64,000 nt of DNA from Phorcus lineatus. Taxonomy: Eukaryota; Mollusca; Gastropoda; Trochida; Trochidae. Position numbers and translations under genes: made by a program. Positions 3,268 through 63,766 of this stretch are shown one piece after another; position 1 is the first letter of the stretch; each line of letters starts with the position of its first letter. Under the pieces are notes generated by a model that saw only the letters and a list, made by a program, of their open reading frames with translations, had not been told where the DNA came from and did no database searches. Where the stretch lies: positions 35,995,484 to 36,059,483 of the forward strand of contig OV121095.1 in assembly GCA_921293015.1 (NCBI GenBank). The letters are read 5' to 3'.

Positions 3268-3545
3268 GGACTTGAGGTGCTTTGGGGTTTTCATTATATC
3301 ACTCAGTATTATTGCACGGAGAAAGCCCACAAGACCATTGAGACAATGCACTGCAGTGAAACCTGCGAGCATTGGCTGGAACTGCCGAACCATGGGTTTC
3401 ACTGCACTTGAATTCAGTGTAGCAATGCATCTAAACATTATTGAATACATAACAGTTCACTACTGCAGACAAAGTTGACAAACCCCTGTCAGAATTTGAA
3501 CACAGGACCTCGTCATACTTTCAGTAGGCTGCTATCAACAATTAA
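3268..3545 (-). mobile_element. SINE family A, minus orientation
   Basis: Read on the - strand, the degraded tRNA head (GTTCAAATTCTGACAGGG region) is followed by the family body. On the + strand one sees GCACGGAGAAAGCCCACAAG, CAGTGAAACCTGCGAGCATT, GGCTGGAACTGCCGAACCAT and AATTCAGTGTAGCAATGCAT. Short open frames across it on both strands are element sequence, not genes. Confidence 0.75.
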
Positions 3546-5435: not shown

Positions 5436-5730
5436 TTGGGGAGTGATGGCACAGTGGTAAGCACATTCAGCTTCGAATCAAGAGGTCCATGGTTCAAATC
5501 CAACCAGGGGCTCGGCAAATTTCTCAGAGGGAGAGAACTCTTCTACACGCAGTAAGTTTTGAGTGCAATGCTTCACTGAATTGCAGCACAGGATCACCAA
5601 TTGTTTGCTTGTTCCAGCCAATGCTCACATGTTTCACCACAATACATAGCCACAATAGTAGGGCACTCCATGCAATAATACTATTATAAGCTAGATAAAC
5701 CCCAAATCACCTCCCTCACCTCTTTAGATT
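5436..5730 (+). mobile_element. SINE family A, near full length
   Basis: The A-box-like GATGGCACAGTGGTAAGCAC (5445-5464) and the B-box-like GGTTCAAATCC (5491-5501) are the best-preserved Pol III promoter of this family in the window. The body has GAACTCTTCTACACGCAGTA and TTCACTGAATTGCAGCACAG; the tail is ACCCCAAATCACCTCCCTCACC. The internal 66-codon frame is element sequence. Confidence 0.82.
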
Positions 5731-8546: not shown

Positions 8547-9470
8547 GGATGCCCCACATAGACTATGAGGTCATATGTATCGTATAGAGGTGATACAAAA
8601 TATTATATATAACAAACTATAAATGAAATGGTTGAAGATGTACTACATAAACTATGAGTTCATTTGCATTGTATGGAGTTGATATGAGTTATTATTTAAC
8701 AAAACTATAAATCAAATGGTTGAAGATGTACTACATAAACTGTGAGTTCATTTGTATCGTTTGGAGTTGATACCAGCTATTATATATAAATTACTATATA
8801 TCAAATGGTTGAAGATGCACTATATGGACTATGAGTTCTTTTGCATCGTATCAAGGTGTTACGAGATGTCATATAAGAAAACTATAAATCAAATGGTTGA
8901 AGATGCACTACATAGACTATGAGGTAATTTGTATCGTATGGAGGTGATACAACCTATAATATAACAAAACTATAAATAAAATGTTTGAAGATGCACTACA
9001 TAAACTATGAGTTCATTTGTATCGTTTGGAGTTGATACAAGCTATTTTATAACAAAACTATAAATCAAATGGTTGATGCACACTACATGGACTATGAGTT
9101 CATTTGCATCGTATCAAGGTGTTACGAGATGTCATATAAGAAAACTATAAATAAAATGGTTGAAGATGCACTACATAGACTATGAGTTCATGTACATCGT
9201 TTGGAGTTGATACAAGCTATTATACATAACAAACTATAAATCAAATGGTTGAAGATGCACTACATAAACTATGAAGTCATATGTATCGTATCGAGATGAT
9301 ACAAGCTATTATATAACAAAACTATAAATAAAATGGTTGAAGATGCACTACATAACTATGAGCTCATTTGTATCGTATGGAGGTGATACAAGCTATTATA
9401 TAACAAAACTATAAATCGAATGGTCGATGCACTACATAAACTATGAAGTCATTTCCATGTAATGGAATAA
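8547..9470 (+). repeat. 88-bp satellite array, about 10.5 units
   Basis: The anchor GGTTGAAGATG or a variant starts at 8630, 8718, 8807, 8895, 8983, 9071, 9158, 9247, 9335 and 9422, giving periods of 87-89 bp. A partial unit precedes the first. Unit subtypes can be told apart by the core after ATCGT: TTGGAGTTGATAC at 8718, 8983 and 9158; ATCAAGGTGTTACGAG at 8807 and 9071; ATGGAGGTGATAC at 8895 and 9335. Units are AT-rich and end in ACAAAACTATAAATCAAAT. No coding potential. Confidence 0.92.
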
Positions 9471-10345
9471 ATAAATTCCTTCATGTTGGATCAATAGCTT
9501 TTCTTTGGGCAAAGCTGAAATGATCACGTTTGCTATTTAAGATTATTCAGATCAGTTCTTGTCATGCTGTTGTTACATTAAAAACTTATCAAAAGAAGAT
9601 TTCAGATGAAATATGGATCGGTGATATTATTCCCATAACATGGAATTTCAACATTGTTGGATTATGATACAAATATTCAATAGCAATTTTGATAACATTA
9701 GAAATAATAAGATGCTAGAGAAAAGCTGAATAAGAATTAGTGCCATCATTTTACATACTATGAATAAAAAACATTATTTCTTAGTGAATTATGATGTTTA
9801 CAAATAACAATTTTTAGGAAGAAAAGAAGTATTAAAACCTGCTATATTATGAAAGCATACCGTGTACATGTTACGCCCACTTTAATATGTTTCTAATAAT
9901 GTATTTTTATGTCTATTGTTGTGGCCAAAAGAGTTGAAAAACTAAAAATGAATATCTGTAATGAGTTTTGTTATTTTTGACATGCTTTCATAAAAAGATA
10001 ATGAAATATTTTTTGTGTTATTGAATGTTTTCTATAATGTTTCATTTAATGGTAAAAGAATCTGACGTGATGGAAATATTTTGCAAGACTGACAAATCTT
10101 ATGGTTAGACAATATGAGGGATGAAAGCTCTGGAATGAGAAATAGTTGTTGCTACTCGCCGGTTGTCATTTCATTCTTACCCAAATGTAACAAAATATTT
10201 GATCAAAGATTTTTGTAAAGTTGTACATTTCAAACTATTCTGACTACCTCATGTTAAAAAGAAGTAAAAAGTTGATTAGAAAATAAATCACAAATAATTA
10301 TATCAAAAGTATTTTCACATATTTATATACAATTCATTCAACATC
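9471..10345. other. No gene seen
   Basis: AT-rich, with stops in all frames and no repeat that I could pair with other parts of the window. Confidence 0.5.
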
Positions 10346-15589: not shown

Positions 15590-16265
15590 TTTTATTTTTT
15601 GATGACAGAATTCTCTTTCCAAATTTCTGCATTACATGATGACAACACCTTCCGGGAAAAGCATAATTGATTATTGATTAAGAATTGTTTCATGATTATT
15701 TATAATTGTTATCAGATATAAATCACTTTTTGTGAATTTTCATTTCCCAATTTCCTGAATAATGCATGCAGGAGAAAGCATAACAGATTATGAAGAAAGA
15801 TCAATATATGATTATTCATTGATTTCAGTTAGATATCAGTAACATTCTGTTTTGATATAACAGCAGAAATTTTTAGGTGATGTGCTGCTTTCAAGATTAT
15901 TTCACTTATATCGCAGCTGCTAGTATTATTGCAGGGAGAAAGCCCGCAAAACCATTGTGGCTCTGCATTGCGGTGAAACCTGCGAACATCGGCTGGAACT
16001 AGCGAACCATGGGTGCAGAAATTTTGAATGAATCAGCCTCAGTAAACAGAGGTATGGATTTTGGGTTCTGTATACGATAACATAATAATGGTCTTGGTCT
16101 GAAAACACTGATCAGAAGAATTCATCAGAATTAAAATTTGAATTTAGTGTCTCTGAATATAATATTATGATTATTACGTTATAATGATATCATTCATCAG
16201 AACACTTATTTTAAGTATTAATGACATTTTGATTCAAATCAACAGCAGAAATTATATTAATGAGT
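15590..16265. repeat. Degenerate tandem region interrupted by a SINE
   Basis: The blocks CTTTCCAAATTTCTGCATTA...AAAAGCATAATTGATTATTG and CATTTCCCAATTTCCTGAAT...AAAGCATAACAGATTATGAA lie about 120-130 bp apart. TTGATATAACAGCAGAAATT (about 15852) and ATTCAAATCAACAGCAGAAATT (about 16234) are another related pair. Period and borders are unclear. Confidence 0.35.
15874..16014 (-). mobile_element. 5'-truncated SINE family A with target-site duplication
   Basis: The + strand shows the inverse of the family 3' part: GTGCTGCTTTCAAGATTATT, TCACTTATATCGCAGCTGCT, GCAGGGAGAAAGCCCGC, GCGGTGAAACCTGCGAACAT. Perfect 11-bp direct repeats GCAGAAATTTT flank it at 15863-15873 and 16015-16025. It lacks the tRNA head, as expected from incomplete reverse transcription. 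Confidence 0.85.
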
Positions 16266-17213: not shown

Positions 17214-18213
17214 ATGGTCAGACGTCAGCTGAGTGAACTTGACAGAGGAAGAGCCATTGCGTGGCTTCAACAGGGTTGTACACAGAGGAATGAGGCACAG
17301 AGAATCGGTTGTAGCCAGAGTGTGATTGGGAGACTATGGCAGTGTTTCCAGGCACCCAGAATCAGAATCGCCCACAGTCTGGTAGGCCAAGATCAACGTC
17401 GCAACGTCAAGACCGGCATGTCGTTCAAATCGCCTTACATCAGCGTGTTGTTACAGCAAGATGTCTGAGAGATGAACTGCGAAATGCAAGTGGTGTTCAG
17501 GTATTGGACCAGACCATAAGAAATCGTCTGTGAGCCTACAACATTTGATCTCGACGACAAGCGGTTCGACCACATCTTCTTCAACGTCATAGGACAGCAC
17601 GTCGTGACTGGTGCACGCGTCATAGAGACTGGCGACGGCGACAATGGGGGCGGGTGCTCTTCACTGATAAGTCCCAATTTGCATTACAGTTCAGTGATGG
17701 CAGAATTTGCGTCTATAGGCGCCAAGAAGAAAGATTTGCTGATGTTAATGTCAGACAACGCCATCGCTTTGGAGGCGGTACGGTAATGGTGTGGGCTGGA
17801 ATTTCGGTACATCACAGAACTCCTCTTTTCATCGTCCAAAGAAATTTGACAGGCATCAGGTAAAGTGACGAAATTTTACAGTCTTTTTTCATTCCAAGTC
17901 TTCGTCAAATTGGAGCAGGTTCTGTTCTTCAAGATGACAATGCTAGACCGCATAGAGCACGAGTTGTTAATGATTTTCTAACCCAAAATGGTATTTAACA
18001 AATGGATTGGCCTGCATATTCACCTGATTTGGCACCAATTGAGCATGCATGGGATGAGTTGGGCAGACGTGTGAGAGACAATCATAGGCAACCTGACAAT
18101 CTTCAGAAAGGCCATTCCCCAGATGTTTTTTCAACATCTGATTGACAGCATGCCTCGTCGTTGTGTCGACCCCTTACGAACAAGTGGTGGTTTCACTCGT
18201 TATTAACAAAGTT
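17214..18213 (+). pseudogene. Tc1-type (DD34E) transposase, inactivated
   Basis: The ATG at 17214 opens a helix-turn-helix region (ELDRGRAIAWLQQG..., IGCSQSVIGRLWQ). The frame shifts near 17336-17345 and then continues GRPRSTSQRQDRH. The catalytic triad is readable in the second frame: Asp in LFTDKSQF (about 17656), Asp in LQDDNARPHRA (about 17937) and Glu in SPDLAPIEHAWDELGRR (about 18041). There are 34 positions between the second Asp and the Glu, counting one stop, which is the Tc1 signature. In-frame stops occur near 17531, 17549, 17861, 17997 and 18142. The length of about 330 codons matches a full Tc1 transposase. Terminal repeats could not be identified. Confidence 0.9.
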
Positions 18214-20605: not shown

Positions 20606-21058
20606 GGCAATTAAAAGTGACACGGAGAAATAACTTCACATTACTACAATCAACAATATTGAAAATGATGTTAAAACAGTCCCAAAACTGTCAGAGTTCG
20701 TTTGGAAAAATTTCGAAATTGAATACTGCATATATTCTAAAAAAAGATATCCCATTAGGTCTGAAAAAGCTAAGCAATGCTTACAAAAAGGAAATACTAA
20801 AAAACATACCACAACTCCAATATGGAAAATCATGCAGTTTTTAAAAATTATCTTTTGTAGAGAAATAAATGTTTAAACTGCATACGCAATGAAAGATGCA
20901 TGATTCAGAAGTGGTGATGGGTGGTGGCAGTGATCTGTGGTTTATACAATCCAGCTATTGAACAATTCTCTAGAGAATTGTTGTAATAATGCTTTAGTCT
21001 AAGTAGCACTGCAAGATCCCATTTCCACATCTTAAGAACCACTTACCATAATACTTAC
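20606..21058. other. No gene seen
   Basis: A 75-codon + strand frame at 20617 has no recognisable domain or splice context. CAATTCTCTAGAGAATTG (about 20962-20979) is a small perfect palindrome. Confidence 0.4.
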
Positions 21059-21225
21059 AGCTGCTAATATTATTGCAGGGAAAAAGCCCACAACAATGGC
21101 TATGCATTGAGGTGAAACCCGCGAGCATTGGCTGGAACCAGCAAATCATGGGTGGTACAGCACTGAATTTCGGTGTAGCATTGCACCCAAACCTGACTGC
21201 GTGTAGAACACTTCTCTACTATTCA
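21059..21225 (-). mobile_element. SINE family A fragment, minus orientation
   Basis: The inverse of the family body is visible: GCTGCTAATATTATTGCAGG, GGTGAAACCCGCGAGCATTG, GCTGGAACCAGCAAATCATG, TTGCACCCAAACCTGACTGC. Both ends are truncated and no target duplication was found. Confidence 0.75.
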
Positions 21226-21439
21226 CAATTGGACATGTACATATGATAGCATGTTTCATATTATTTCTGTGAAGGGGAGATTTGTTCATGTATCTTAGAT
21301 TACTGAAAAATCAGTAAGTCATCTTTTCCCCCGTGATACATTTGTTTCAAACAGTCATACTCCCTGCATCTATTCGAGACCCAGTTTCAATTTGAGACCA
21401 GGCTTCTATTTGAGAAAAAAGGTAAAAAGCCTTTCTTAC

Positions 21440-21548: not shown

Positions 21549-21766
21549 TGAGGTGAGGTGAGGTTAAGTGAGGTTTCACGCCGCTTTCAAGAGTATTTCA
21601 CTTATATCGCGGCTGCTAGTATTATGGCAGGGAGAAAGCCAGCAACACCATCGTGGTTATGCATAGCGGTGAAACCTGCGAGCATTGACTGGAACTAGCG
21701 AACCATGGGTGGTACTGCACTGAAATTCAGTGTAGCATTGCACCCAAACCTGACTGATGTAGAACA
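21549..21766 (-). mobile_element. 5'-truncated SINE family A with 12-bp target duplication
   Basis: It starts on the + strand with GTGAGGTGAGGTGAGGTT, then TTTCACGCCGCTTTCAAGAG and TATTTCACTTATATCGCGGC, and ends near CTGACTGATGTAGAACA. Flanks AGACACATTGGG (21537-21548 and 21767-21778) are identical. This copy preserves the 3' tail best. Confidence 0.88.
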
Positions 21767-21779
21767 AGACACATTGGGA

Positions 21780-22500
21780 AAAGAAATGAATTATACCAAC
21801 TTTTTATTTACTTTCTTACTTTACTTACTGTACACAGACACATACTGTTGCTTGTGATAAATTCTAGCATGTTTGATAAGCTAAAAAAAACAGCATCATA
21901 TCATTGTTAAAATTGTTGGATCCAATAAGTTCTGTCTTGTCATTACCTAAGTATCTAAATGAGGCGGGAAAATAGATTATCATGTAACCTGCTTGAAAAA
22001 ATAATGATTTACGACAATTCACCTGGTAAAGTGAAATTTCAGATACACATGTACAAAATCATTAAACTGGGAATATTTCAATATGTGGGGAATAAGAGGG
22101 GCTTTGAAACACCCCCAACCCCATTATCCCAAACCACCCTTTGGGAAATGTCTCCTTTAGTTTTAGAATTAGTCAAAATAGATTGATTTTACATATCATA
22201 GTTTTGATAGACATTTAGAATTTCACTTGCTTGAAATTGAACTTTTTTTCGCATCTACCCTGAATTGTAGGTACTAATAACAACTCACTAACTCACTTGC
22301 ATCTGCTCATAAGCATTGCCTTTACTGCAACAAGGGTTTATCTTTAAAATTTGTTCTTCCTTACTTTATGCCCCCACCAACAAAAGGGTGATGGCCAAGT
22401 CACACAGAACTTTACCAACGACATAACTGCATATCTGTCTCCATAATTGACAAATTTCAACCTTTCAAGTTTTCTGTGTCAGTTCTTCGGCTTACTGCGC
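21780..22500. other. No gene seen
   Basis: Probably intron 2 of the - strand gene together with flanking sequence. No open frame with supporting signals was found. Confidence 0.4.
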
Positions 22501-31719: not shown

Positions 31720-31849
31720 ATGGCGTCTGCGAAAGTTGCCAAACTTAAACGCCTTGGGAATTCTAACTCAAAGGACGACCCTATAACGGAGACAGAAGAC
31801 GAAAAGTCATACCCGACTCTCGAAGAATTGGAATTACTGAAAACAATAG
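31720..31849 (+). CDS. PRKX: PRKX-like protein kinase, coding exon 1
   Basis: The ATG lies in AAAATGGCGTC, a strong start context that also resembles a YY1 site. The exon encodes residues 1-43 and ends after the first base of a glycine codon, followed by the donor G|GTAAG. The N-terminal ~30 residues are basic, then acidic, and look unstructured. Residues about 32-43 (TLEELELLKTIG with the split Gly44) match the strand that enters the glycine-rich loop of PKA/PRKX kinases. It joins exon 2 in phase to give GTGTFGRV. PRKX is a cytosolic and nuclear cAMP-responsive AGC kinase related to the PKA catalytic subunit. The short N-terminus without a myristoylation MG start fits PRKX rather than classical PKA-C. 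No upstream ATG is in frame without a stop. The exon and donor are seen directly; the assignment follows from the whole spliced reading. Confidence 0.88.
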
Positions 31850-33673
31850 GTAAGAATTCCAATGATATCGTTTTCTTTTGATTGGTTGTCTTGGAAACCG
31901 TTCCAATAATTATGTCGTCTGCATCCCTGTCAAAGTCAAACCAAGAACTCGATGAACTTCGGTAAATGTATATTATATTTACTGAAAAGATGGATACGAA
32001 ATTGTTTTCTTCGTTGTTAAACAAACGTTATATTTTTATATGTATTTTTTAACCTTTGAACGTATTTTTATTTCTATTTCTTGTATATGTAATTTACTTT
32101 ATGCGATATTGAAATAACATTATGTTATCATCTGAAATACAGAAAAATAAGTATCACTTTTTGGTTATTTTATATCTTCAATTCATAATTTTACCCTTCC
32201 TGTGTTCTACAGAATGTATCAGGTTACTGCAAGTGTCAAAATGTATTACACTGTATTACACTGTATTGTGTTTGAATACAGAATTTCATTTTGATTACAA
32301 CTGTGACATCTGAAAACATTTTTTTTATCAATGTACAACTATGTTGCACATATTAAGTTCCACTTTAATACACTGTTGATAAATTTAATACAAAGTTACG
32401 TGCATGTACCCAAGGAGTATTATGTGAAACATAGATATATGTATAACATTATAGCAAAAGAAAATTACTTTTATATGTCATAATCACACATTATTCAATT
32501 GTAAAAATACATATTATATATTTCTGTTCTTCTTCAACATTTTGAAATTAATTTAATGAACAATTTCAAAGTTTCTAGGCTTTTATTCAATAATTAATTG
32601 ACTCTTTAACATTATTTTTGTAATGCAACTTGGTTGGGGTTAGCTCAACAAGGTTGTTCTCATGTTTTAGTGATCAATAATTAACAGCATCAGCTATGGG
32701 AAGTATCAATTAGCATTGTATCCTGTGACTCAACACATGCCATATACCTGTACTGTTGAGGTTAAGCAAAGATATACAAGTTCAAAATAGACATGATGTT
32801 AAGTTGATATTGATGAACAAACCAGTTAAGTTCCACTGAGTATCAAGTTTGTTTATTACTAAACTCCTAATGAATCAATGTAACCAAGCCTTTACAAGTT
32901 ACGCAGCAAATTAAGGTGTTGAAATTTTTTACCTGAAAATAAAATACTAAATATACAAAATTTATGTCATGCAAGTTCAACACATTAAAACTTAATTTTT
33001 TTTATAATGGATAAATTTATGTATTGATGTTATGATTTGTAGTATGATCTCTCTTGCTTTACACTTTATGTAGATGTGTAGTGGACTTTCAACTACATGC
33101 AAAAGTATAATTCATTTAAGTTAGAATTTGAAGATAAAAAAATGATTTGCTTTTATAAGCAGCAGTAATGAGAAAAGATCATTTGAGAACAATCCCCTTA
33201 ATATTTGATAAAACCTGATATTTAACCTATGTACTCGACTTGACTATCATGCTTTAAATATCTGATAATTTGATGAATAAAGCAAGTTTTTAAATCCTTT
33301 TGATTTTGAATACATTGCAAATTGATGAAAAGGTTTTTCTCCATTTAAAAAGCAGTTGTAAAAACTACTTACAACTATGACATCATGAAAGAAAGTTTTG
33401 TGTTAGTACTATGTGGTATTCAATTTGCAAGATTATACCTTTAATAAGCACAGCATCGATGTAATAACTTTTGACATTATTGTTATTTACCCAAGCAGTA
33501 TGCATGCACTTAGTGACTGTTCCTTTTCTATTGACCGTAGACAATGTTTTTTTGATATATCCAGAAACACACTCATTACAATAGTAATGTGGAAGAAGTG
33601 ATGAAACTTAACAAAACAGTATTATGCTACAGTATCAGTAGCTACTTAACCTAAAGGTTTTATGAGTGAAATA

Positions 33674-61215: not shown

Positions 61216-62335
61216 GTATGCTGACCTCGTCCCATTAAATGACTGTATCAAAAAAGGGAGAGAGAGCTTTTTACAATTTGGCATCTTTGTATTGTGAATT
61301 GAAACCTCTTTGTTGTATTCAGTCTTATGATTTGTTGTGAATTTGTTGCCAAGAAACATACTTTCATTTTTTACATCAATTTTTATTTTCTTTTTTGTGA
61401 TTGAACATTCCTTGCTACTGGTTCTTTTATGGAAATTTTTGTTTAAACAAATTTGCTATAATGCATGAAATTAAATGAATGTGGATGAAGGTATGGATGA
61501 GGATGAAGATGAAGAAAATGAATGAAAGGCAATCTATCTACAAATATACAACATTTCTATGCAGTTTTTTTTTTAGCTCATTAGGACTAAGAAGCTAGAA
61601 AGGCTAATAACATGGTGTCCATCTGTCAATAATACTCATACACCTTTTGTCAATTCCATGTTGCATCCTCTCAGGTAGATAACTTACTTTACAAAATACT
61701 CAAACATAGCTCTAGAATGCCTTTGTTTTTATCGTTACCCAAATTGTTTGTTTGTTTTTTATTTGAACTGTTGCTAAGCGATGAAAAGAAGACTAATTAT
61801 GCAGACATACTCTTTACCTACGTAACCCAACACTCCACAGATTTCCACCTTAACAGATTGCTAGTTAGCAGTGTCGAGATGCAGGTGCGTTTTTCTGAGC
61901 TAACAATTACATAACACACCTTCCGTGTCGGTTATTTGGGATTATGGGAAGACAAACACTTAGTGCATGTGTAATACTATAAATAACATGTGTGTGTTTC
62001 TTTGCTTGGAGCAAGATACAACAGAGATTGATATCTATGATATGATGAAGAAGTAAAGTTTCTACAAATTTCGCCATAAAGGGAGATTTTTGAGCCTTTA
62101 TCTTTTGGTACAGAATAGCCAAGATCTTTGGGTTGTTCCCTCTTTGAATTTGTCATAATTTGAAGTTTTTATCCAGAAAATAACTTGCTTTTAGGTAATC
62201 AGGTATATAAGTCCAGATGGCTAATGGAAAATCAAATCATCCGACCATCAGCAGTTGTCCTTTGCCTGTAGCCTATTCATTCACATTTTGACTGTACACA
62301 TGAACTCAAATCCTGAAGAGCTACAGAGCCCATTA
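61216..62335. other. Intron sequence, no feature supported
   Basis: A GAATGTGGATGAAGGTATGG/ATGAGGATGAAGATGAAG low-complexity patch lies at about 61476-61520. Nothing else is supported before the exon 2 relics. Confidence 0.4.
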
Positions 62336-62412
62336 GGTAGCTCAACATTTTGGAGAATATTACTAGCTCAGAAAAAGGCATCAGGCAGCATCAAGGTCAT
62401 GTTCATTATAGA
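62336..62412 (+). pseudogene. Decayed copy A of kinase exon 2, 5' part
   Basis: The sequence from about 62344 (AACATTTTGGAGAATATTAC, then TAGCTCAGAAAAAGGC) matches real exon 2 at 62934-62975 (AACATTTGGGAGAGTATTAC, then TAGCTCAGAAGAAAGGC). In the exon's frame it still reads FWRILLAQKK, against FGRVLLAQKK in the gene. The next codons have lost about four residues around the ATP lysine segment, and the acceptor is degraded to ATTAG. The match resumes after a SINE at 62723-62740. It is a relic of a tandem exon duplication, not a usable exon. Confidence 0.75.
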
Positions 62413-62415
62413 GGT

Positions 62416-62722
62416 GGGGCTGGGATAGCGCAGTGGTTAGCGCGTTCAGCTTCGGATCATGAGGTCCGTGGTTCCGGCCAGGGGCTCGGGAACTTTGTCT
62501 GCAGTAGAGAACTGTTCTACACGCAGTCAGGTTTGGGTGCAATGCTTCACTGAATTTCAGCACAGTAACACCCATTGTTTGCTAGTTTCAGCCGATGCTC
62601 GCAGGTTTCACTGCAATGCATAGCCACAATGGTGTTGCAGGATTTCTCATCGGGCTTTCTAGCAGCAGCGATATAAGTGAAGTATTTTTGAAAGCGGTGT
62701 TAAACCCCATATCACCTCACCT
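62416..62722 (+). mobile_element. tRNA-derived SINE (family A), full length with target-site duplication
   Basis: The head GATAGCGCAGTGGTTAGCGC is a Pol III A-box-like tRNA start. A degraded B box (GTGGTTCCGG) follows, then the family body with GAACTGTTCTACACGCAGT and CACTGAATTTCAGCACAG, ending in AAACCCCATATCACCTCACCT. Flanking direct repeats CATTATAGAGGT (62404-62415) and CATTAAAGAGGT (62723-62734) match at 11 of 12 bases. The element is inserted inside decayed exon copy A. Confidence 0.85.
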
Positions 62723-62740
62723 CATTAAAGAGGTCACCTG
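62723..62740 (+). pseudogene. Decayed copy A of kinase exon 2, 3' remnant after SINE
   Basis: After the SINE the sequence resumes with a duplicated CATTAAAGAGGT and then CACCTGATCAAGTTATCC. This parallels copy B (TATCTGATTAAGTTGTCC) and the IIRLK-coding part of true exon 2 (TATCAGGTTAAAAC). Removing the SINE and one duplication copy restores collinearity with copy B. Confidence 0.65.
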
Positions 62741-62792
62741 ATCAAGTTATCCCTCCATCTGTTGAATTTTCTTTTCCTATTTTTTACTCCAG

Positions 62793-62886
62793 GAATGGGA
62801 ACATTTGACAAAGTGGTACTAGCTAAGAAAATCAGGCAGCACCATGGCCTGTAGGTGATGACAATGACAGATTATCTGATTAAGTT
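62793..62886 (+). pseudogene. Decayed copy B of kinase exon 2
   Basis: It is preceded by an acceptor-like TTTTTACTCCAG and begins GAATGGGAACATTTGACAAA, against GAACGGGAACATTTGGGAGA in exon 2. In the exon's phase the loop reads GMGTFDKV instead of GTGTFGRV, so the second and third loop glycines are affected, and a TAG at 62852-62854 ends the frame. Similarity continues through AGGTGATG and AGATTATC. The flanking intron is also duplicated: GATCAAGTTATCC...TGTTGAATTTTC at 62738-62771 matches GATTAAGTTGTCC...TGTTGAATTTCG at 62878-62910. The repeat period is about 134 bp. Confidence 0.8.
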
Positions 62887-62926
62887 GTCCATTCATTTTG
62901 TTGAATTTCGTTTTTGTGTTTTCCAG

Positions 62927-63095
62927 GAACGGGAACATTTGGGAGAGTATTACTAGCTCAGAAGAAAGGCAGCAAACAGTACCATGCCCTGAAGGTGATG
63001 TCCATAGCAGAGATTATCAGGTTAAAACAGGCCGACCATATCAAGAGTGAGAAGGAGATCCTTACAGAGAGCAGACATCCTTTTATAGTCAATTT
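62927..63095 (+). CDS. PRKX: PRKX-like protein kinase, coding exon 2
   Basis: The acceptor is TTTTCCAG|GA and the donor is AATTT|GTAAG. The exon encodes the glycine-rich loop GTGTFGRV (residues 44-51), the ATP-anchoring lysine in ALKVMS (Lys66) and the helix C glutamate in SEKEIL (Glu85). The stretch KVMSIAEIIRLKQADH is closer to PRKX (KVMS, RLKQ) than to PKA-C, where the equivalent region reads KVVKLKQ. All N-lobe catalytic residues are intact. It begins with the last two bases of Gly44 and ends with two bases of Leu100, so it joins exons 1 and 3 without a frame break. Two decayed copies of this exon lie directly upstream (62336-62735 and 62793-62886). The intron before it is about 31 kb. 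Confidence 0.93.
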
Positions 63096-63766
63096 GTAAG
63101 TTTTTAGTCATATTTTGTATACAGCAATTGTTATCAAAGAGTTTTATGGCTTAGAGTAAGATAAAGATCATGCAGAAATCCCCAACATTCTTTTATTATC
63201 AGTTGGATTTTGGGATGGCTATTAAAAGATACATGATGTACAGTTTTGCTTAAATCTGCAAGTCAATAATAATTTGGTTCTTTCTTAACTTTTATTTAGG
63301 AGAGTGACATTAATTTGTTGAAAATATTCATCTCTTAAATAGCATTCAATGGGTATGTATAAATCTTTGTGACACAGTCATCTCCGATTCCAGTGGTTCC
63401 TTCTCTCCCTCTCTCTCACAAAAGTAGCTGGTGGTGGAATAACATAGCGTTAGGCTTTAGATCAAGAAGTCCAAGGTTGAGATCCGGCTAGGTGCTATGC
63501 AACTTTGTCCGCAGTAGAGAACTATTCTACATGCAGTAAGTTTTGGGTGCAATGCTGCACTGAATGTCAGTGCAGTACCACTCACTGTTTGCTAGTTCAA
63601 AGAGAAGCTTGCAGATTTCACTGCAATGCTTAGCCACAATGGTGTTGCGGGTTTTCTCCCTGCATTAATAATACCAGCTGTGTTATGAAGGAAATATTCT
63701 TGAAAGAACCCCCAAATCACCTCAACTCACCTTACAAATGTAACAATGTAACTTCTCTTATTGCAG
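63096..63766 (+). other. PRKX-like kinase intron 2
   Basis: This 671-bp GT-AG intron lies between exons 2 and 3. Nearly half is a tRNA-derived SINE (63428-63732) whose 3' end lies about 34 bp upstream of exon 3. The branch-site-like TAAC motifs and the pyrimidine tract lie in the short stretch left between them. The first 330 bp show nothing recognisable. Confidence 0.85.
63428..63732 (+). mobile_element. tRNA-derived SINE (family A), diverged full-length copy
   Basis: It has the same order as the 62416 copy: a tRNA-like head with GGTTGAGATCC as the B box, a body with GAACTATTCTACATGCAGT, CACTGAATGTCAGTGCAGTA and TTAGCCACAATGGTGTTGCG, and the tail CCCCAAATCACCTCAACTCACC. It is more diverged than the 62.4-kb copy, so older. 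It ends about 34 bp before kinase exon 3. Confidence 0.8.

Follow-up and report, generated by a model that had tools for sequence, protein, structure and literature searches.

Unannotated tandem exon duplications lying within introns have been documented (Ivanov and Pervouchine 2022, PMC9013439), as has partial exon duplication involving a cryptic AG/GY motif (PMC2891723), while mutually exclusive exons are recognized by similar length, conserved splice sites and reading frames, and homology (Pillmann et al., PMC3228551). As far as these accounts describe them, each resembles in part the locus reported here, which lies in a kinase gene of the gastropod Phorcus lineatus. Like the tandem exon duplications of PMC9013439, it holds unannotated or unused tandem sequence homologous to an exon of the gene in which it lies, but the repeats here cover just the beginning of the exon with its acceptor, lack a donor and are decayed. 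With the duplications outlined in PMC2891723 it shares an internal AG|GT within the duplicate (AAG|GTGATG here), whereas the duplicate here sits within an existing intron and has not added an intron to the coding sequence. As in the clusters outlined in PMC3228551, the repeats are homologous, in tandem and each preceded by a homologous intron end, but similar length, a conserved donor and an open frame are found in those clusters and not here. Exons Ab and 3 of U2AF1, as presented in PMC5224494, are also comparable, since the duplication proposed for them engages the upstream intron together with the exon, and their wrong inclusion leads to stops and NMD, much as we would predict if the copies here were used. 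In contrast to the copies here, which are truncated and broken, the U2AF1 exons are complete and used. We conclude that the Phorcus locus very probably arose by partial tandem duplication of an intron end and the start of exon 2, followed by a second duplication, which left an array of copy A, copy B and the live unit in which both copies have decayed.

The stretch of DNA analyzed, 64,000 nucleotides and hereafter the window, carries the beginning of the kinase gene on the + strand. An in-frame splice model yields eight coding exons encoding 346 aa with no internal stop, in which all seven introns are GT-AG, and five of the exons (exons 4-8) lie in the DNA downstream of the window. The remaining exons are as follows.

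31720 to 31849, + strand: exon 1 of the kinase gene in the splice model, followed by a donor GT at 31850.
62927 to 63095, + strand: exon 2 in the splice model, 169 nt, running from the glycine loop to FIVNL, with its donor GT at 63096.
63767 to 64030, + strand: exon 3 in the splice model, spanning the window end.

The product matches Pkinase in Pfam (E = 1.4e-70), among solved relatives of its first 228 aa the PKA catalytic alpha chains rank highest (best E = 3.5e-75), and NCBIfam returned bacterial kinase models only, each below its own cut-off. The gene is of PKA/PRKX type and may be PRKX-like rather than PKA-C. A protein search of the organism's own genome (958 Mb in 74 contigs; 150 of 250 candidates scored) returned 49 matches, among which the gene's own exons 3 and 2 stand at 96% and 89%, and the best-scoring match beyond this gene was 37% identical. 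The complete gene needs only the live exon 2, and neither of the copies.

Both copies lie in intron 1, upstream of exon 2, and are listed below with the live unit and with the SINE that interrupts copy A.

62876 to 63025, + strand: live unit, consisting of a candidate branch site, a pyrimidine tract, the AG and the first 99 nt of exon 2, as delimited by alignment with copy B.
62876 to 62884, + strand: candidate branch site of the live unit, CTGATTAAG.
62925 to 62926, + strand: live acceptor AG, preceding exon 2.
62738 to 62883, + strand: copy B, consisting of CTGATCAAG, a pyrimidine tract, an AG and an exon-like part (score 99, E = 2.3e-14).
62738 to 62792, + strand: intron-like part of copy B, aligning to the intron upstream of exon 2.
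62791 to 62792, + strand: acceptor AG of copy B, 134 bp before the live AG.
62793 to 62883, + strand: exon-like part of copy B, aligned with exon 2.
62337 to 62415, + strand: first piece of copy A, including the first target duplication at 62404 to 62415 (score 61).
62404 to 62415, + strand: first target duplication, CATTATAGAGGT.
62416 to 62722, + strand: SINE in copy A, 307 bp, with 12-bp target duplications on both sides.
62723 to 62734, + strand: second target duplication, CATTAAAGAGGT.
62735 to 62746 (end approximate), + strand: end of copy A after the SINE, running into the intron-like part of copy B and overlapping CTGATCAAG.

The initial annotation held that copy B repeats the start of exon 2, its acceptor and its intron flank with a period of about 134 bp, and this is borne out. 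Copy B aligns to the live unit with a local score of 99, when the best of 1000 dinucleotide shuffles reached 29, and nhmmer in the 64-kb window links the two in both directions (E = 2.3e-14 with the live unit as query, 1.4e-14 with copy B as query). Its exon part differs from exon 2 at 18 of 91 sites (K2P 0.230) and carries deletions of 6 nt and 2 nt. The stop and the altered loop described earlier are both present: the loop reads GMGTFDKV, with its first G supplied by exon 1, and the TAG occupies 62852-62854, where exon 2 reads AAG, the codon of the catalytic lysine. Copy A is more degraded. It scores 61 against the live unit (best of 1000 shuffles 30), is found by nhmmer in the same window at E = 1.1e-6 with the live unit and 0.02 with copy B as query, differs from exon 2 at 23 of 90 sites in its exon part (K2P 0.315) and has deletions of 1 nt and 8 nt. 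Its own 79 nt are free of stops but frameshifted, and the stop comes after residue 73, inside the SINE. An intron-like part of copy A is doubtful: the stretch lying some 105 bp above its AG matched the intron-like part of copy B with a score that 5 of 1000 shuffles reached, and the score against the live intron part was reached by 99 of 1000.

While the initial annotation spoke of exon copies, and two tandem decayed copies do indeed stand there, what is repeated is a 3'-splice-site module rather than an exon, composed of a candidate branch site, a pyrimidine tract, an AG and only 91-99 of the 169 nt of exon 2. CTGATTAAG is a candidate branch site by the consensus for such sites. Both copies have the same truncated build: exon 2's final ~70 nt and donor are absent, the codons KQADHIKSEKEILTESRHPFIVNL are missing and, after 91-99 nt, each copy passes straight into the intron sequence of the next unit. 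The range reflects the joint itself: the last 8 nt, CAGGTTAA in exon 2 and CTGATTAA in the copies, may be assigned to either side of it and, since their likeness could be ancestral or fortuitous, the boundary may fall as much as 8 nt before. The three units are in register, with AG spacings of 137 bp from A to B once the SINE and one target duplication are removed (456 bp as it stands) and of 134 bp from B to the live unit. A profile built from copy A, copy B and the live unit recovers, by construction, all three in the 64-kb window at E values of at most 9.2e-23, and finds no further match there below E = 0.44.

This arrangement bears on whether A and B could stem from a dispersed repeat of unrelated origin, or from a retrocopy, that merely resembles exon 2, a reading for which we found no supporting point and whose probability we regard as practically negligible. 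Copy B includes the intron upstream of exon 2, and both copies stand in register beside that exon. Queried with each of the three units, the organism's own genome returned the query places only, revealing no repeat family; these DNA searches did not connect the two copies and exon 2 with one another and therefore exclude close copies only. The 49 matches of the protein search (150 of 250 candidates scored) include a single closely matching exon-2/exon-3 locus. Copies of the other seven exons were not found at E ≤ 1 in the window and the 20 kb downstream, and the SINE, set against the live unit as negative control, gave a chance-level score (135 of 200 shuffles as good).

Two other stretches of the window deserve mention. 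The segment 62130-62334 faintly resembles copy B and, by eye, could be an older unit; as a fourth copy it was rejected, since 14 to 38 of 1000 shuffles, depending on the scoring scheme, aligned as well to copy B, its resemblance to copy A and the live unit was at chance level (176 to 873 of 1000), and it is missing from the profile scan. At 17549-17863, a 104-aa open frame may resemble a Tc1/mariner-type transposase; it matches no Pfam family at E ≤ 0.001.

That a SINE flanked by 12-bp repeats splits copy A was correctly recognized in the initial annotation, with CATTATAGAGGT and CATTAAAGAGGT matching at 11 of 12 positions, and the two pieces of the copy do lie on either side of it; however, the second piece as given then (62723-62740) includes the target duplication, and the copy resumes only at 62735. 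The limits of the SINE agree with its family in the organism's own genome, for which a first look gave 6088 candidates, 40 of these being scored. Among other family members, similarity breaks off just beyond the 5' end of the element (27 of 29 copies usable); at the 3' end they carry CACCT tails that vary in length (26 of 29 usable). From the consensus of the 29 best-matching copies the SINE has diverged by a K2P of 0.109, a rough figure because those copies are young (mean divergence 0.022). The branch of copy A is longer, 0.241 (bootstrap 0.121-0.395), and copy A was therefore probably already diverging before the insertion, with wide error. The earlier statement that the SINE dates the loss of copy A to before or at its insertion thus holds, but dates little. 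Seven further, mostly partial, copies of the SINE family were also seen, one of them within intron 2 of the kinase gene.

63426 to 63729, 5437 to 5720, 21552 to 21788, 3270 to 3538, 21022 to 21241 and 15864 to 16043, in the window: further SINE-family copies.
9166 to 9478, in the DNA piece L004: further SINE-family copy.

The truncated build also decides how the past of the copies is read. The initial annotation suggested that exon 2 once had mutually exclusive alternatives for the ATP-binding loop, of which A and B would be relics, full copies having lost their 3' parts before decaying. PKA-C genes with mutually exclusive exons occur in Aplysia. Our narrow literature search for Aplysia cAMP-dependent kinase with mutually exclusive exons found none; that for PRKX with mutually exclusive exons or exon duplication showed no PRKX paper among the matches listed, and that for PRKX with mollusc and exon nothing relevant. 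As PMC6071210 portrays them, such clusters are typically homologous, lie in tandem and take in the upstream intron, yet homology is the only feature named by Pillmann et al. that A and B display. Their length is 91-99 nt, as against 169 nt in exon 2, after which intron sequence begins, so neither has a donor at the place of exon 2's donor; the acceptor is kept in B and poor in A; and reading is cut short after residue 63 in B and residue 73 in A. The internal donor-like AAG|GTGATG offers no way out, since its use would make a 68-nt exon that ends in phase 0, after which exon 2 would be read in the wrong frame even if the copy were undecayed. As they stand, A and B are thus unable to replace exon 2, which leaves a mutually exclusive past unsupported. 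Moreover, because A and B share one joint, ending at the same place in exon 2, full-length copies could have existed only before the second duplication, and nothing points to them. Pairing of the docking-site kind is likewise absent upstream: a docking site for the copies at 61750-62330, suggested by an inverted match, was rejected when duplex energies proved no better than those of shuffles (29, 196 and 31 of 200 matched the value for A, B and the live unit, respectively). We consider the relic reading extremely unlikely. The inverted match itself joins 61886-61907 of intron 1 to 62359-62380 in copy A over 22 nt (86%); taken as an RNA duplex, this region pairs no more strongly than shuffled sequence.

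Divergence fits copies that never encoded protein. When aligned with exon 2, both differ from it evenly across the three codon positions (6/30, 7/31 and 5/30 for B; 7/30, 8/30 and 8/30 for A). Over 83 columns, branch lengths are 0.241 for A, 0.127 for B (bootstrap 0.038-0.238) and 0.134 for the live exon (0.044-0.265), the last being no shorter than that of B despite the constraint expected on a live exon. At eight sites the two copies share a base that differs from the live exon, and three of these differences would be synonymous when taken singly. This proportion fits neutral change (P = 0.82) and, under a constrained live exon, has P = 0.0006, 0.009, 0.08 and 0.47 for omega of 0.05, 0.1, 0.2 and 0.5, respectively. 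The simplest reading would be a shared non-coding stem of A and B, in which a single duplication of the live unit was followed by one of the broken copy, an order that depends on few sites and a partly repetitive alignment.

The acceptor of copy B calls for a separate consideration. Scored with generic weight matrices, the 1728 AG sites of the 31-kb intron 1 place exon 2 first, copy B second and copy A at rank 1022; with the same kind of matrix, the donor-like site of copy B ranks 84 of 1787 GT sites and the donor of exon 2 at 63096 scores 4.32. Whether read through or as a 62-nt cassette, copy B stops after residue 63. Copy B could accordingly be pictured as a working decoy, or poison acceptor, to which exon 1 would be spliced, giving a stop at the catalytic lysine, decay of the message and less kinase; it would then have been retained as a decoy 3' splice site, a failed exon duplication turned dosage control. 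Drift alone, however, can keep such a score. In 20,000 simulations starting from the acceptor of exon 2, with substitutions but no indels and the same generic matrix, a B-type score was retained in 41%, 20%, 13%, 6% and 5% of cases at divergences of 0.05, 0.10, 0.13, 0.20 and 0.23. Selection is not needed, therefore, since about 13% retain it at the divergence estimated for B. Both the decoy and its retention for dosage control are, in our judgment, very unlikely. Some use of the B acceptor is plausible from its sequence and would produce a truncated, probably NMD-targeted transcript.

Partial tandem duplication followed by decay remains the reading that we favor. A segment of ~134-142 bp, in which the 3' end of intron 1 is joined to the opening 91-99 nt of exon 2, would have been duplicated in tandem, presumably by slippage or unequal exchange, and a second duplication would have given the order A, B, live unit. 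The copies were probably non-coding from the outset, because each lacks the remainder of exon 2 and its donor, and the live unit, the final and strongest acceptor, would have stayed in use. Both copies would then have drifted within the intron, the SINE entering A later, and unproductive splicing at the remaining acceptor of B is likely to occur to some extent, as a by-product. The copies bear the marks of partial tandem exon duplication, being adjacent, with a common joint and homology to part of the exon and its flank; both carry frame-breaking deletions, and B has its TAG. The tandem amplification and subsequent decay of all but one copy proposed at the outset agree with these features and with the register of the units. 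Against this stand the very strong acceptor of B, which exceeds most of the neutral simulations, and an intron-like part in copy A that is not clearly recognizable.

The locus would seem, then, to be mostly an ordinary gene fossil. Were the B acceptor used, it would provide a straightforward natural instance in which partial duplication gave rise to an unproductive-splicing switch in a signaling kinase. The A/B array offers a clear example of tandem duplication multiplying a 3' splice site without creating an alternative exon fit for use, and a helpful counter-example to the reading of decayed exon copies as lost mutually exclusive exons.
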